Shown in pieces: positions 1,474-21,382 of a stretch of DNA of 39,743 nt. The position numbers were made by a program, and so were the translations under genes. Under the pieces are notes generated by a model, which ran no database searches, was not told the DNA's origin, and saw only the letters and a list, made by a program, of their open reading frames with translations. Source of the stretch: Elusimicrobiota bacterium (lineage in GTDB: Bacteria > Elusimicrobiota > Elusimicrobia > UBA1565 > UBA9628); the NCBI GenBank assembly GCA_026388095.1, contig JAPLKL010000042.1, positions 1 through 39,743 on the forward strand, in the 5' to 3' direction. How positions within the stretch are numbered: the first letter of the stretch is position 1; each line of letters begins with the position of its first letter.

Positions 1474-2514
1474 TCAGCGAGCCTGGGACGCTTCGGGCCG
1501 GTAGTACTGCTCCCGTATCCCGGGAAGCCAGCCTTGCATCTTCTCGATCCTGCGGGCCGTGATGGGATGGACCTGGAGGTGCTTCTCGATCCTGCCCATC
1601 AAGCCTGGCGGCACGGGACGGGAGGTCTCCTGGAGCAGCCGGCTCCAGAACTCGACCCCCCGGGCCGGGTCATAGCCGGCCTTGGCCATCAAGACCAGGC
1701 CGATGCGGTCCGCCTCCTCCTCCTGCAGCCTGCTAAAGCCCGCCAGCAGCGCGCTCTTGCCCTGACCGGTGCCGATGCCGTAGATGGACTGGGCCACGGT
1801 GACGATGCGCGCCGCGTTGATAGCGGCCGGGACCACGGCCGGGATGACCACGGCCAGCGCGGGGGGGACGACCGCTCCGGCCGCGCTGAGCCCGCTTTCG
1901 ACGAGGATCAGCTCGGTGATGCGCTCGCCCAGGTGGCGGGCGACGGCATGGGCCATCTCATGGCCCAGGATGGCGGCCAGGCCGTCGTCGCCTTCGCTGA
2001 TGGTGAGCATCCCGGAGAGGATCCCGACCTTGCCGCCGGGCAGGGCGAAGGCCTGGTCCTGGTCTCCGGCCACGCCGTAGGCGCTGGTCGGACCCACATC
2101 GACGAGCTGGACCTCCCAGGTCCAATCCGGCCGGCCGGCGGCCGCGATCATCCGGGCGCTCACGCGCTGGACCATGGCCAGGCGGTCGGGGTCCTGCGAG
2201 AGCTTGGAGCCGGAGAGGAGGCGCTGATAGAGGAGACGGCCGATGTCCTCTTCCCATTTCTCCCTGAGCAGGAGGGGGCGATGGCGGCCGGTATAGGGCG
2301 CGCCCAAAGTGTGCTGATGCCACCACTGCTCGAGCTCCCGGCGCCGCTGGCCTTCGGCATGGGCTCCGGCCAGGGCGGTCCGGATCCTGGCGCCGAAGTC
2401 GGCCTCTCCCAGCGCCCGGGCGGCTTCCAGCGGCTGGGCCCGGAGCCCGGGCAGGGCCGCGGCCAGCAGGCAGGCCGCCAGCAGACCGGCGTTCCTTCTT
2501 CTCGACTCTCTCAT
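1474..2514 (-). CDS. exported M48-family zinc metalloprotease
   Basis: A 346-residue M48 peptidase. The zinc motif HEMAH is at residues 185-189 and the third-ligand region EEEADR at about 265-270, the standard M48 arrangement. The N-terminus (residues 1-26, RRR then a Leu/Ala-rich core ending LRAQ) is a signal peptide, so the enzyme should act in the periplasm, in the style of BepA/LoiP-like proteases that handle outer-membrane proteins. I chose the ATG at 2514 because GGAGG lies 6 nt upstream and the signal peptide begins there; reading further upstream (to 2604) would run through a transcription terminator. The gene is directly preceded by the R1 leader RNA, whose terminator ends about 30 nt before the start codon, so expression is probably controlled by attenuation. 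The PLD-like gene follows 15 bp downstream. Confidence 0.88.
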   Translation of the reverse strand: MRESRRRNAGLLAACLLAAALPGLRAQPLEAARALGEADFGARIRTALAGAHAEGQRRRELEQWWHQHTLGAPYTGRHRPLLLREKWEEDIGRLLYQRLLSGSKLSQDPDRLAMVQRVSARMIAAAGRPDWTWEVQLVDVGPTSAYGVAGDQDQAFALPGGKVGILSGMLTISEGDDGLAAILGHEMAHAVARHLGERITELILVESGLSAAGAVVPPALAVVIPAVVPAAINAARIVTVAQSIYGIGTGQGKSALLAGFSRLQEEEADRIGLVLMAKAGYDPARGVEFWSRLLQETSRPVPPGLMGRIEKHLQVHPITARRIEKMQGWLPGIREQYYRPEASQAR

Positions 2515-2544: not shown

Positions 2545-2595
2545 AAAAAACGGGCTCCGCGGGATCAGGACGATATCCTGATTCCGCAAAGCCCG
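2545..2595 (-). terminator. intrinsic terminator inside the R1 leader
   Basis: Read on the minus strand, a stem of about 20 bp (base CGGGCT/AGCCCG, upper part TCAGGA/TCCTGA, one A-C mismatch and two wobble pairs) is followed by TTTTTTG. It lies between the R1 promoter and the M48 start codon, so it must be bypassed for the protease to be expressed. The first bases of the 5' arm are shared with the closing stem of the upstream RNA domain (2593-2597). Confidence 0.85.
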
Positions 2596-2702
2596 TGGGT
2601 TCATCCCGATATGGCGGGATCGCGTTTCACCCCGGGGCCGATCCCCCAGGTTACACGGTGCTGCCTGTCAAACTGCTGCCGACAGGGTCACGCCAAAGAA
2701 CT
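2545..2702 (-). ncRNA. R1: riboswitch-like structured leader RNA, copy 1
   Basis: A structured 5' leader of the M48 gene, matched by a second copy at 16881-17016. On the minus strand: a variable hairpin, then CACCGTG, a hairpin with a CCUGGGG/CCCCGGG stem and loop GAUCGG, the linker UGAAACGCG, a hairpin AUCCCG/CGGGAU with loop CCAUAU, then GAACCCACGGGC leading into a strong terminator. CCGUG (2654-2658) can pair with CACGG (2593-2597), closing both hairpins into one domain. That 3' strand overlaps the terminator base, so the two folds compete. The second copy differs by stem-preserving changes. I could not match it to cores I know (c-di-GMP-I/II, SAM, TPP, FMN, cobalamin, glycine, fluoride, T-box). 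Ligand unknown; a stand-alone RNA is the alternative. Confidence 0.65.
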
Positions 2703-4436: not shown

Positions 4437-4511
4437 CGGAGACGGAAGGCCGGGGCGCGGAGAAGCTCGCTCGGCGGTTCCTGGAGTGGGCGCAGTCGCG
4501 CTTGGCTTGAT

Positions 4512-4742
4512 GCCAGTCGACGTTCCCCCGGCTGATGAGTTCCACTCCGCCTAGCCGCGGCTCTGCCTCGACGTCTCTCTCCTGAAGTGACCCACCCGGT
4601 ACTGACGCACACTCCGGCGGCGTTTTGGCATTATAGCTCGAATCTCGGCCTTTGCCAGGCCCCCGCGGGGGCCTGGTCGGGGAAGTCGCTTACGATAAGG
4701 CCCATTCTGTTTGGAAACCAGCTTATTAGGACTACAATCCTG
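4512..4742 (+). repeat. dispersed repeat copy A, long form
   Basis: The core (4512-4626) starts GCCAGTCGACGTTCCCCCGG and matches copies B, C and D nearly base for base. The extension (to about 4742) carries ATTATA, a perfect palindromic hairpin, CGCTTACGATAAGGCCC and GACTACAATCCT, all of which recur after copy C. Within the core, the two halves (TCGACGTTCC... and TCGACGTCTC...) resemble each other, suggesting an old internal duplication. On the minus strand the core begins about 7 nt after a TATAAT box (4630-4635), so it may be transcribed as a leader towards the 503-residue protein gene. Confidence 0.8.
4655..4676. repeat. palindromic GC hairpin in repeat copy A
   Basis: A perfect 22-bp palindrome of the form CCAGGCCCCCG/CGGGGGCCTGG. 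The matching hairpin after copy C (10991-11014) has a different loop but the same stem, so the structure is conserved in the long form of the repeat. It may act as a terminator, though no long T-run follows. Confidence 0.5.
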
Positions 4743-10749: not shown

Positions 10750-10756
10750 CGTGCAG

Positions 10757-10861
10757 GCCAGTCGACGTTCCCCCGGCTGATGAGTCCCACTCCGCCTAGC
10801 CACGGATCTGACTCGACGTCTCTCTCCTGAAGTGACCCACCCGATCCTGACGCACATCCCG
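10757..10861 (+). repeat. dispersed repeat copy B
   Basis: About 105 bp matching copies A, C and D, placed 7 bp upstream of the minus-strand FGE gene and directly joined to copy C. It reads VDVPPADESHSA-stop in one plus-strand frame, the same short tail seen in the other copies. Confidence 0.8.
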
Positions 10862-11072
10862 GCAGTCGACGTTCCTCCGGCTGATGAATTCCACTCCGCC
10901 TAGCCACGGCTCTGCCTCGACGCTGCCAGCCTGACGAATCCCACCCGATTCTGACGCTCACTCCGGCGGCGTTTTTGTATTATAACCGAATCCAGGCCCC
11001 CTCGGGGGCCTGGATTGGATGATCGCTTACGATAAGGCCCAGCGAGTTTATCGGGACTACAATCCTCTGGAT
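10862..11072 (+). repeat. dispersed repeat copy C, long form
   Basis: The core (10862-10976) matches A, B and D, with a diverged second half (GCTGCCAGCCTGACGAATCC). The extension repeats the copy A extension: TATAAT on the minus strand at 10979-10984, a GC hairpin at 10991-11014, CGCTTACGATAAGGCCC and GACTACAATCCT. B and C are in tandem and would form the 5' leader of the FGE mRNA if the TATAAT box is used. Hairpin GAATC-GGGTGG-GATTC and several stem-like segments can be drawn on the minus strand. Positions 11073-11203 hold a shared fragment (see 4405) and an unsupported short reading frame. Confidence 0.8.
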
Positions 11073-11833: not shown

Positions 11834-11852
11834 GGTCCCTCCTCTCCCTGCA

Positions 11853-11890
11853 GGCCGGTAGATGTTCCTCCGGCTGATGATTTCCACCTT
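11853..11890 (+). repeat. dispersed repeat copy E, short partial form
   Basis: The stretch GTAGATGTTCCTCCGGCTG continuing to GATGATTTCCACC matches the first 35 bp of the repeat with several changes. It overlaps the 5' flank of the HEAT gene and lies 2 bp beyond the Fic stop codon. It is the most diverged copy. Confidence 0.6.
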
Positions 11891-13803: not shown

Positions 13804-14761
13804 CTGCCTCTGTTGCACGAAGCCCATCGCTGAGGAGGGACGCTACCACCCACGCTGCCTCAAGGAGCTCTTCGGTTCGACGCGTGTTCCGGCCATCCCC
13901 TTCGGCTTGGCGGACCTGCCGGCCCAAGTCCTTAAGACCGGGGCGCGCATGTCGATTTCAGGCGTGCAGATCAAGGCCTCGGTCCGGCTCAATCCCGAGA
14001 AATTCCAACTTGAAGTCGTCGCGGCCGGCGGGACTTATGTCCTCAAGCCGGAACCTCAGCAGTTCCCAGCGCTTCCGCAGAACGAGAACCTCTGCATGAG
14101 CATGGCCGCTGATTTGGGCCTGCCCGTCCCTGCGCATGGCCTTTTCCCGATGGCCGACGGCGGGCTCTGCTACCTCGTCGCCAGGTTCGACCGGGTCGGT
14201 GATGAAAGACTGCAAAACGAGACGCTGTTCCAGATCCTCCAGGCGACCGAGAAATACGAGGGCTCGCTTGAGCGGATCGGCAAGGCGATCCGGACACACG
14301 CAGCCAACATCGGGCTCGACACGATAGACTTTTTTGAGCGTGTGCTGTTCTGCTTCCTGACCGGCAACGGCGACATGCATCTGAAGAACTGGGCCCTGCT
14401 CATCCGCGACAAAAAGGTCGGGCTTGCGCCCTGCTACGACCTGATCTGCTCAAAGGTCTATCTCCCCAGCGAGACTGATTCCGCGCTGACGCTCGGCGGC
14501 AAGAACGACAAGCTCAAGCGGTCGGACTTCGAGGCTATGGCCGCCTACCTCCAGATCGATTCAAAGGCGGCGGGCGACATCTTCGAGAAGTTTTGCCGCG
14601 CGCAGGAGCAGATGAGGGAGGCGGTCGGCAGGGCCGAGCTGCCTTTCCACCTGAAGCAGAAGTTGGACGACGTCATCAAGGCGCGCTACAAGCGGCTCTA
14701 CGGGGGACCAGCGGCCATCTCAGTCGACGTTCCTCCGGCTGATGAGTCCCACTCCGCCTAG
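13796..14761 (+). CDS. hipT: HipT-like serine/threonine kinase toxin
   Basis: A 321-residue HipA-type kinase lacking N-subdomain 1. Visible: an N-terminal zinc-knuckle-like stretch (CLCC, residues 4-7, then H18 and C21); a Gly-rich loop with the SIS motif (SISGVQIK, 53-60), the phospho-regulated sequence of HipT; a probable ATP-binding Lys in YVLKP (84); catalytic NGDMHLKN (191-198, Asp193); and APCYD (Asp215, metal binding). HipT of E. coli phosphorylates TrpS; the substrate here is unknown. The ATG at 13796 has GGAGG 9 nt upstream and overlaps hipS by 8 bp. The last ~13 codons (SVDVPPADESHSA) and the stop come from repeat copy D, so the native C-terminus was probably replaced by the repeat insertion. 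Confidence 0.85.
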   Translation: MASCLCCTKPIAEEGRYHPRCLKELFGSTRVPAIPFGLADLPAQVLKTGARMSISGVQIKASVRLNPEKFQLEVVAAGGTYVLKPEPQQFPALPQNENLCMSMAADLGLPVPAHGLFPMADGGLCYLVARFDRVGDERLQNETLFQILQATEKYEGSLERIGKAIRTHAANIGLDTIDFFERVLFCFLTGNGDMHLKNWALLIRDKKVGLAPCYDLICSKVYLPSETDSALTLGGKNDKLKRSDFEAMAAYLQIDSKAAGDIFEKFCRAQEQMREAVGRAELPFHLKQKLDDVIKARYKRLYGGPAAISVDVPPADESHSA

Positions 14762-14819
14762 CCACGGCTCTGCCTCGGCGTCTCTCTCCTGAAGTGCCCC
14801 GCCCGATACTGCCCCCGCG
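14721..14819 (+). repeat. dispersed repeat copy D, fused to the hipT 3' end
   Basis: Nearly identical to copies A-C over 99 bp, in the same orientation. It encodes the last 13 residues and the stop codon of HipT, and marks the right edge of the 10-kb accessory region that begins at copy A. Positions 14820-14938 hold only a short GC-rich hairpin-like stretch and the ribosome binding site of the next gene. Confidence 0.8.
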
Positions 14820-14938
14820 TAAGCCTTAAGCCCCGCTCGCGGGTAGGCCCTAATCCATGCCCATGTTGGCCCTTTGGGCTCATCCTGCCTGAGCCGGGTT
14901 TGCGGTATCATGGGCTCCTGATGCCTCAGGAGAAATCT

Positions 14939-16351: not shown

Positions 16352-16849
16352 TTAGCCTTGCGCTGAGGGCAGGACCAAAGCGGCGCTGCGTCCGCCCCGC
16401 TGGACCTCTTCCGTGGAAACCGGCCCCTGCCGCTGGAAGCTCCACACCGCGTAGTACTTCCCGCCGGGGCGCAGCTTGTGCTGGACGTCCTTGAACGTGA
16501 ACTCGTAGAACGGACCGACCGGCTGGGCGATGTCGATGTCGAAGATGACCGGGTCGGGGCGCAGGCCGCGGTCTTCCTTGACCGCGATGATGAGCCGCGT
16601 CGCGCCGCCGGTATACTTGCTCGCCCGCTGGTCCTGGAAGGCCAAGGTCACGCCATCGGCCTCTTCACGGAACATGACCAGCTCCAGACCCGCGGGCGCG
16701 GGTGCGGGGGGGAGGCCGTCCATGACCGCGCGCATGTCGATGCCGCGGTCGAAGTCCTGCCCGGACGGCGGCTGGGCCGACGACGGGGCGGCCAGCAGTG
16801 CGGCGATGGCGGCTGAGCATACGGCGGCGGCTCTCCCGAGCTTTTTCAT
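16352..16849 (-). CDS. small exported beta-rich protein downstream of R2
   Basis: A 165-residue protein: signal peptide (ends APSSAQ, about residue 27), then beta-rich sequence (GLELVMFREEADGVTLAFQD, LIIAVKEDRGLRPDPVIFDI, YEFTFKDVQHKLRPGGKYYA, VWSFQRQG) with the spacing of an immunoglobulin-like or fibronectin-type fold. No catalytic residues are evident and I cannot name a family. Two ATGs 6 nt apart exist; AAGGAG fits the second (16849) best. It is preceded by the R2 leader and its terminator, the same arrangement as for the M48 protease, so both should be in one regulon. It converges with the membrane protein gene (3-bp gap). Confidence 0.7.
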   Translation of the reverse strand: MKKLGRAAAVCSAAIAALLAAPSSAQPPSGQDFDRGIDMRAVMDGLPPAPAPAGLELVMFREEADGVTLAFQDQRASKYTGGATRLIIAVKEDRGLRPDPVIFDIDIAQPVGPFYEFTFKDVQHKLRPGGKYYAVWSFQRQGPVSTEEVQRGGRSAALVLPSAQG

Positions 16850-16880
16850 CCTCATCTCCTTGCGGCTTGGTCTTGGACAA

Positions 16881-16931
16881 ATAAAAGAGGGCTCCCTAGG
16901 ATCAGGACGAAATCCTGATCCTACGAAGCCC
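16881..16931 (-). terminator. intrinsic terminator inside the R2 leader
   Basis: On the minus strand a 19-position stem with one mismatch (base GGGCTTC/GGGAGCCC side, top GGATCAGGA/TCCTGATCC) followed by TCTTTTATTT. Relative to R1, several stem bases change on both arms (GCGG/CCGC to GTAG/CTAG), keeping the pairing. Confidence 0.85.
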
Positions 16932-17016
16932 GTGGGTTCATCCCGTTATGGCGGGATCGCATTTCAGCCCGGGGCCGATCCCCCGGGTCGCACGGTGAGA
17001 CTGATCCGAAAGAGCT
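16881..17016 (-). ncRNA. R2: riboswitch-like structured leader RNA, copy 2
   Basis: Second copy of the R1 leader, before the 165-residue exported protein. Shared core: CAGCTCTTT near the start, CACCGTG, hairpin CCCGGGG/CCCCGGG with loop GAUCGG, UGAAAUGCG, hairpin AUCCCG/CGGGAU with loop CCAUAA, GAACCCACGGGC and the terminator. The region before CACCGTG is shorter than in R1 and forms its own hairpin (GATCC/GGATC). CCGUG (16991-16995) pairs with CACGG (16930-16934), overlapping the terminator base at 16930-16931. The 5' arm of the first hairpin (GGGAUCG) can also pair with CGAUCCC in the next one, so alternate folds are possible. Confidence 0.65.
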
Positions 17017-17022
17017 GGGATC

Positions 17023-17028
17023 AGTGTA
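17023..17028 (-). promoter_or_regulatory. -10 box of the R2 leader
   Basis: TACACT on the minus strand, identical to the -10 box of R1 and at the same distance from the shared CAGYTCTTT. The -35 region is poor (TGGCAG at a 17-nt spacing). Confidence 0.5.
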
Positions 17029-17104
17029 GTGCGGAGGGCCCAGGACTGCCAGGGACTTCGGGCCCACGGGGCGATGGGTCCAAGGGCCTAGGGCCACCCC
17101 CAAA

Positions 17105-20180: not shown

Positions 20181-21382
20181 ATGAGGAGACTTCCCCTGTC
20201 CCTGGCCTGCCTCGCAGCCGCCGCGGTTCTGCTCGCGGGCTGCGGCCGGCGTTCCGGGGACACCATCCGCATCGGCGTGATCGCCGAGCTGACCGGGTCC
20301 ATCCCCGCGTGATCGCCGAGCTGACCGGGTCCATCCCCGCGGTCGGAGCCTCCTGCCGCAACGCCGCGCAGCTTGCCGCCAAAGAGATCAACGACGCGGG
20401 CGGCATCGAGATGGAAGGCGGGAAGAAGAAGATGATCGAGCTGGTCATCGAGGACACCGCGGCCAAGGCGGACCAGGCCGCGGCCGCGGCCCAGAAGGCG
20501 ATCACCCGTGACGACGTGGCCGCTATCGTGGGCCCCAATTCCAGCAGCAACGCGCTGCCCGCGGCCGAGATCGCCGAGAAGGCGGGCGTGGTCATGATCG
20601 CGCCTTGGTCCACCAACCCCAAGACCACTCTGGACGCCCAGACCAACCAGCCCAAGCAGTTCGTGTTCCGGGCCTGCTTCACGGACACCTTCCAGGGGCA
20701 TGTGCTTGGGAAATTCGCCGCCGAGATCCTCAAGGCCAAGAAGGCCGCCATTCTCTATGACGTGGCCTCCGAGGTGCTCAAGAGCCAGTCCGAGCTCTTC
20801 AAGCAGAGCTTCGAGGCTGGAGGCGGGAAGGTGGTGGCCGCGGAGACCTACACGACCGGCGACAAGGATTTCTCCGCCCAGCTCACCAAGATCAAGCAGG
20901 CGGGCCCCGACATCGTCTTTTTGCCCAGCTACTACACGGACGTGCCGCTGCAGGTGCAGCAGGCGCATCGCCTCGGCCTGAAGGTCCCATTCCTCGGCAG
21001 CGACGCCTGGAGCACGGAAGAGCTGATCAAGATGTGCGGCAAGGACTGCGACGGCTTCTACCTTTCCAACCACTACTCTCCCCAGACCACCAACCCGGTG
21101 ACGCGCAGATTCATCGCCAGCTACCAGGCCGCCTACGGCAGCGTCCCCGACGACGTGGCGGCGCTCACCTACGACTCGTTCGGCCTGCTGAAGGCGGCGC
21201 TGGCCGCCGCGAAGACGACGGACCGCCGCGCCATCCGCGACGCCCTCTCGCGGACCACGGACTACAAGGGAGTCACCGGGGACATGAGGTTCACCCCCGG
21301 CTCCGGCGACCCGGTGAAGGGAGCGGTCATCCTGCAGATCAAGGACGACAAGTTCGTCTGGGTCACGGACGTGCGGCCGTAG
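20181..21382 (+). pseudogene. livK: livK-like branched-chain amino-acid binding lipoprotein, frameshifted
   Basis: Substrate-binding lipoprotein of an ABC importer (Peripla_BP_6 family). The ATG at 20181 has AAGGAG upstream; the lipobox LLAGC gives an acylated Cys. The frame reads MRRLPLSL…LAGCGRRSGDTIRIGVIAEL and then stops at a TGA after SIPA, because 32 bp are tandemly duplicated (20277-20308 and 20309-20340). Removing one copy gives a normal 389-residue protein (GSIPAVGASCRNAAQLAAKE, then the usual domain to the TAG at 21382). The rest is intact: IVGPNSSSNALPAAEIAEKA, DFSAQLTKIKQAGPDIVFLP, GVTGDMRFTPGSGDPVKGAV. The lesion is therefore recent, or an assembly error, or a slippage switch. 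Confidence 0.85.
20275..20341 (+). repeat. 32-bp perfect tandem duplication inside livK
   Basis: Two perfect 32-bp copies in direct tandem, period 32, with 3 further matching bases at the edges. As 32 is not a multiple of three, the duplication shifts the livK frame and creates an early TGA. Confidence 0.95.

Follow-up and report, generated by a model that had tools for sequence, protein, structure and literature searches.

A predicted ON riboswitch variant of the 2'-dG-II class with a rebuilt junction, found ahead of exported-protein genes in Elusimicrobiota

Two RNA leaders, R1 and R2, on a contig of an Elusimicrobiota bacterium (39,743 nt, analyzed whole and referred to here as the window) are predicted riboswitch aptamers of purine-riboswitch architecture and, by sequence comparison, represent a real, conserved, and apparently undescribed variant of the 2'-dG-II class. 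The variant comprises eight copies in seven genomes of three bacterial families, and R1 and R2 quite probably act as ligand-activated (ON) transcription-attenuation riboswitches built on a purine three-way junction. How ligand specificity evolves can be followed in natural variants of a single small RNA scaffold; the specificity changes known so far in the purine family involve a few junction bases, whereas here the whole junction is rebuilt, and the presence of the unchanged parent type in the same genomes makes ligand and mechanism directly testable.

The R1 and R2 leaders and their relatives

The R2 leader is on the minus strand and, read from 17028 to 16881, is organized with a -10-like TACACT, a three-way-junction RNA, and a strong terminator with a U-tract, followed by the gene at 16855-16352. 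A terminator-like hairpin at 17141-17110 lies between the leader and the upstream aldolase gene and separates the two. R1 is a second copy with the same variant aptamer. Their parts are as follows.

17023..17028, minus strand: probable R2 promoter -10 element TACACT (a consensus-like hexamer, enriched upstream of 135 riboswitches)
16927..16998, minus strand: R2 aptamer, a three-way junction (RF03165 37.5 bits, E 9e-8; variant model 98.4 bits)
16995-16991 with 16934-16930 (P1), 16987-16968 (P2), and 16957-16940 (P3), minus strand: R2 stems, from pair counts in the 8 copies
16958..16967, minus strand: R2 junction J2/3, CUGAAAUGCG, the predicted rebuilt part of the ligand pocket (8 variants aligned against 112 canonical RNAs)
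16889..16931, minus strand: intrinsic terminator stem of R2, with G68 and G69 in common with P1 and a U-tract after it (16888-16878)
16352..16855, minus strand: putative R2-controlled gene, coding for an exported protein with a single beta-sandwich (74% identity to the L058 gene product; predicted fold)
2590..2661, minus strand: R1 aptamer (RF03165 49.2 bits, E 4.9e-11; variant model 99.0 bits)
2550..2596, minus strand: intrinsic terminator of R1, with A66-G69 in common with P1 and a U-tract after it
1474..2514, minus strand: putative R1-controlled gene, coding for an exported M48-family metallopeptidase (PF01435, E 4.1e-27)

Several other repeated elements are present near these leaders and elsewhere in the window. 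Arrays of GGCCY-N2..4-GGNCC lie upstream of the promoters (17077-17100 and 2738-2751) and ahead of the 135 riboswitches, with 60 occurrences in the 135 upstream stretches versus 5.0 ± 2.4 in shuffles; they also occur in other parts of the window, with a total of 18, and are possibly operators of an uncharacterized regulator. A CAGYTCTTTSG-like element just past the -10 (17017-17006 and 2703-2692) is also found upstream of the aptamer at L058 and L067, so that all four variants from the window's order have it; variants from the other family showed no such element. An intergenic repeat family of ∼120 nt, with copies 75 to 85% alike, occupies 4507-4704, 10752-11041 (two tandem copies), 11849-11887, and 14714-14842 and has no Rfam match at the gathering threshold, and there is a perfect 32-nt tandem duplication at 20275-20338.

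For all eight variants the best Rfam match is RF03165 (2'-dG-II), at 37.5 to 58.7 bits, and all eight, R1 and R2 included, score under its gathering cut-off of 60 bits. A scan of the window at Rfam's own thresholds gave no match, and the R2 match, which is full-length, is seen with relaxed thresholds. In the genome from which the window comes, RF03165 finds three canonical RNAs over the cut-off (81.7, 81.0, and 76.8 bits), one RNA at 57.2 bits, R1, and R2. The general purine model, RF00167, has no match there at E ≤ 1. The 57.2-bit RNA precedes an S41 protease gene (L039, 290-2155) whose product matches NF033424 (CPAF) with E 6e-191. Among 97 relatives, 42 genomes have an RF03165 match at E 0.001 and 38 have one over the cut-off; among 340 genomes of the phylum, the numbers are 96 (at E 1e-10) and 88. 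All 135 matches of the 97-relative search were extracted, and the 112 of at least 60 bits serve as the canonical set. Folding of the aptamer sequence on its own gives a modest and unexceptional z of -1.5, and the case for the aptamer thus rests on homology rather than energy; the R2 terminator folds at -31.8 kcal/mol, with z -6.45 against shuffles. Pairing of the upstream GGATCAG of R2 with the terminator, considered in view of the identical heptamers, is absent from the fold of the 140-nt leader and was set aside as minor.

The rebuilt junction

R1, R2, L067, and L058 have a common junction that is absent from every one of the 112 canonical RNAs. A model built from these four copies scores them at 90.8 to 99.0 bits in 56 genomes of the order, with the next RNA at 68.5 bits, and in the 340 phylum genomes it finds four further copies in a distant family (77.1 to 94.1 bits). 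With an eight-copy model, the variants score 91.9 to 101.4 bits against 65.4 for the next RNA in 59 genomes of that distant family (f15), in which there are no additional variant copies. Judged by these scores, the variant is a discrete group. A scan for the exact junction pattern, which excludes L058-type junctions, gave 29 loci in genome contigs beyond the phylum, none of them variant by the model (best 17.9 bits), and none in viral contigs.

The J2/3 sequence is GYGAAAYGCG in seven of the eight copies and GUUAACGCG in L058; the former is one base longer than the canonical GYAUCCACG. Purine-riboswitch numbering, transferred from the RF03165 alignment and the available part of the text of PMC8872408, places an A-A-A plus one extra base where A48-U49-C50 stand in canonical RNAs. 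The canonical RNAs are themselves nearly uniform, with AUCCAC in J2/3 in 105 of 112 and UA in J1/2 in 111 of 112, and there are no intermediates between the two junctions among them. None of the variants has the canonical GYAUCCACG with U22-A52. Position 52, an A in canonical RNAs, is G in all eight variants, and position 22 is U in six and C in R2 and L067, so that the U-A contact between them becomes U.G (six copies) or C-G (two). Position 51 is C in six copies and U in R2 and L224. R2 is the most divergent of the eight at 37.5 bits, with U51 replacing C51 and with C22, G23, and C46. Among other 2'-dG-II RNAs, J2/3 is ATCTAC (U51 with A52) in L063 and L075, which lie ahead of similar genes, and AATCAAC in L064; these junctions are candidates for further specificity changes.

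The rest of the aptamer is kept. P1, P2, and P3 are present in all eight variants, with standard pairs in 99.3% of 144 cells and three pairs changed on both sides. The ligand-pairing cytosine C74 (C78 in 2'-dG-II numbering; column 64) and the junction pair G21-C79 (columns 8 and 65), through which 2'-dG-II recognizes guanine, are invariant, as are the GG of L2 (columns 23 and 24) and the CC of L3 (columns 48 and 49) that form the kissing loops. That the variants might be decayed, non-functional 2'-dG-II copies, left before genes that no longer need them, would agree with all eight scoring under the Rfam cut-off and R2 scoring lowest; however, one new junction is held in eight copies of three families with intact stems and compensatory pairs, and the overlap with the terminator is kept in seven of eight, making decay extremely unlikely. 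A ligand-free or protein-operated attenuator with a mere likeness to the purine fold is also very improbable. The ligand is a prediction and an additional 5' leader element is carried by four of the copies, both of which would fit such an attenuator, but what is conserved is the set of core residues of purine riboswitches, and every copy matches RF03165 by itself in the searches made (E 1.2e-12 to 9e-8; R1, 4.9e-11).

Closing stem and terminator

A sequence-only reading of the window had proposed that CCGUG and CACGG close the aptamer, that this stem shares bases with the 5' arm of the terminator, and that its stabilization allows the gene to be read. The stem is present as P1 of R2, on the minus strand, and the terminator does start inside CACGG, taking two of its five bases in R2 and four of five in R1. 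The same competing arrangement is found in most canonical relatives and in seven of the eight variants; the eighth, L067, lacks a U-run. Of 139 leaders examined, 122 have a U-run 12 to 95 nt past the aptamer, and in 105 of these a helix of at least five pairs runs from the last eight bases of the aptamer to the U-run, versus 60.4 ± 5.3 (maximum 76) in 100 dinucleotide shuffles. A laxer first version of this test gave no separation (99 of 122 real leaders; shuffle rate 67%).

Forced folding places the open, terminator-forming state below the closing-stem state by 1.3 kcal/mol in R2 and 3.6 in R1, and by 4.3, 5.6, 3.3, 6.0, and 4.4 kcal/mol in the other five terminator-bearing variants; the folding programs leave out tertiary contacts and ligand. 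Folding of the growing transcript, the co-transcriptional check that had been suggested for this leader, leaves the aptamer 0 to 2.8 kcal/mol from the best fold until formation of the final terminator pairs, and once the terminator is complete the aptamer state is behind by 2.4 (R2) to 10.7 kcal/mol. As modeled, this energy course along the transcript is the one expected of an ON switch under kinetic control. With two bases common to P1 and the terminator and a small calculated bias (1.3 to 2.4 kcal/mol), switching in R2 may be weak.

An alternate fold pairing GGGAUCG of the first hairpin with CGAUCCC of the second, also put forward from the sequence, does not hold up. The complementarity exists in R2 and R1, but the forced fold is 4.2 to 19 kcal/mol worse than the best, and all seven pairs are possible in four of the eight copies only (R2, R1, L058, and L221). 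The calculations favor a different alternative, in which the 5' strand of the closing stem pairs with J2/3 (YGUGY with AYGCG) in the ligand-free fold. This helix arises in the 5' part of the RNA, ahead of any possible formation of the closing stem. It is found in six of eight variants versus 26 of 112 canonical RNAs (Fisher p 0.004, with related sequences treated as independent); in L067 and L224 another fold is better. The G at column 6 that enables it is present in all eight variants versus 18 of 112 canonical RNAs (Fisher p 2e-6, overstated through kinship).

Without ligand, the 5' strand of the closing stem would lie on J2/3 and the terminator would form. With ligand, J2/3 would be taken up by the pocket and the closing stem would form, depriving the terminator of two to four base pairs beside the U-tract and allowing transcription of the exported-protein gene. 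Since the 3' strand of the closing stem is reused by the intrinsic terminator in seven of eight copies, ligand binding should turn transcription ON, and attenuation as the class of mechanism is well supported by the sequence comparison. Guanine riboswitches commonly lower expression when guanine is plentiful, according to the sections of PMC9295807 available, and an OFF switch, with ligand promoting termination, would fit that habit; yet no anti-terminator apart from the closing stem was found in these leaders, and the same sections read one strand common to closing stem and terminator, as is present in seven of eight variants, as the layout of ON switches (xanthine-II and 2'-dG-III). An OFF switch is therefore very unlikely.

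Downstream genes, candidate ligand, and known purine-fold riboswitches

The sequence-only reading had also noted that both downstream genes code for exported proteins and took this as a hint of an envelope-related ligand or a stress regulon. The export stands, with an M48 peptidase after R1 and the one-beta-sandwich protein after R2; the envelope or stress ligand is not indicated, as the RNA is related to the riboswitches for 2'-deoxyguanosine. The M48 protein scores below the cut-offs of the BepA and LoiP models. M48 genes are present in 20 of 56 genomes of the order, and a riboswitch scan of 12 such loci found one at the window's own locus only, so the link between R1 and M48 is based on one case.

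Genes behind the homologous leaders were listed, as had been recommended, and few of the 121 proteins scanned against Pfam could be named. Among the matches listed, which give 25 of 32 families for part of the downstream proteins, are at least five metallo-beta-lactamase/ComEC-like proteins, at least four receiver domains, at least three tyrosine/dual-specificity phosphatases, at least two PLD and at least two M23 peptidase matches, and single S8, M13, S41, and trypsin peptidases. ComEC, PLD, and receiver domains are among the 2'-dG-II partners named in the part of PMC8872408 available. A crude hydrophobic-N-terminus rule, applied without a control set, counts 93 of 132 downstream proteins as exported. 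2'-dG-II RNAs are common in the phylum, being over the cut-off in 88 of 340 genomes, and they lie ahead of genes for exported hydrolases and further exported proteins, a setting that is relevant to their purpose. An ESL-like motif just past the signal peptide in exported proteins of unrelated domains (L048, L159, L153, L150, L142, and L111) and an FD-x-G-(V/I)-(D/S) motif that recurs in others are possible sorting motifs.

The R2 gene product has no match in Pfam or NCBIfam. The proteins encoded behind R2 and L058 are homologous (74% identity over 138 residues), and those behind L221, L222, and L223 form another related set; each set consists of pieces of a single exported two-domain family of ∼305 residues. 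Its N-terminal domain is matched by L221, L223, and L237 (hhalign E 5.7e-32) and its C-terminal domain by the R2 and L058 proteins (hhalign probability 85.7, E 5.5e-6). Pieces of the family follow five of the eight variants versus none of 128 proteins after non-variant RNAs, with L224 left out of the gene association as its open reading frame ends after ∼45 residues near a contig end, and the R2 and L058 proteins alone match the family model among the 132 downstream proteins. The five variant-associated proteins, used as query, have matches in 73 of 340 phylum genomes, and of 20 loci of the two-domain family five have the variant riboswitch and 15 have no riboswitch. The family is predicted to fold as two beta-sandwiches (mean pLDDT 71.9), with the biofilm protein RbmA (4kkr) as best Foldseek match (E 2.3e-5 but TM only 0.20). 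The R2 protein is predicted as one beta-sandwich, most of residues 61-166 having pLDDT values over 90, and matches FnIII-like structures (best E 1.1e-3).

Conservation of C74/C78 suggests a guanine face on the ligand, which would be a guanine compound, possibly one other than 2'-deoxyguanosine. With A48-U49-C50 replaced, the sugar side of the ligand is probably read unlike in canonical 2'-dG-II; in the part of PMC8872408 available, U49 touches the sugar 3'-OH in 2'-dG-II simulations and C51U causes an 18-fold loss. Six of the seven variant genomes also have canonical copies (three in G000, two in G001, and none in G054; G199, G210, G223, and G225 have RF03165 matches with best E of 5.8e-19 to 9.1e-23). 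The kept C74/C78, the replaced U49, and these canonical copies together leave altered specificity evenly balanced.

A further-reaching reading, with a probability a little below even, is a new specificity class in which the rebuilt J2/3 would sense a guanine ligand that is not 2'-deoxyguanosine and would also capture the closing stem, controlling the exported beta-sandwich family. The ligand may be another nucleoside or one that bears a substituent on its sugar, and in the ligand-free state the pocket bases of J2/3 would double as the capture strand, making pocket and switch one element. A serious competitor, to which we give somewhat less than even confidence, is an ordinary 2'-dG-II RNA with cosmetic changes, which would have the same ON mechanism and still sense 2'-deoxyguanosine. 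The retention of C51 in six of eight copies and of C74/C78 and G21-C79 in all eight, the best match to 2'-dG-II within Rfam, and the exported-protein theme of canonical copies are all consistent with it, and R2 (U51, C22) and L058 (C51, U22) precede homologous genes, so the pocket seems tolerant of change at 51. Against retained 2'-deoxyguanosine sensing are the wholly rebuilt J2/3 with no intermediates, the differing gene partners, the reported roles of U49 and C51, and the canonical copies, next to which another 2'-deoxyguanosine pocket would be redundant.

The variant was not found in Rfam 15 or in the titles and abstract starts of the literature searched, a scope outside which the 2017 variant survey and the 2'-dG-II crystal paper fall. 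The portion of PMC9295807 available describes three variants from Firmicutes (xanthine-II, guanine-II, and 2'-dG-III) and predicts that others are still hidden, and its sections on purine variants contain no GYGAAAYGCG-type junction. Compared by those descriptions, guanine-II and xanthine-II of Paenibacillus are like the variant in purine fold, insertion in J2/3, and ON switching with terminator overlap, and the one-base insertion and U51 of guanine-II resemble R2; they are unlike it in being reported only from Firmicutes, adjoining purine enzymes, and xanthine-II further has G51 and an insertion in J3/1. The 2'-dG-III RNAs are likewise rare, bind guanine nucleosides, and have a predicted ON terminator, but are described there solely before purine nucleoside hydrolase genes, of which there are none here. 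The guanine/adenine riboswitch (RF00167) has a similar overall fold, although its model finds nothing in the window's genome. Closest is 2'-dG-II (RF03165): the variant differs in its GY-GAAA-Y-GCG junction, in G52 with U or C at 22, in U51 of R2 and L224, in scoring under the Rfam cut-off in all eight copies, and in its gene partners, and it shares with 2'-dG-II the three-way junction, the GG/CC kissing loops, G21-C79 and C74/C78, the overlapping terminator, the exported proteins downstream, and the same phylum and genome.
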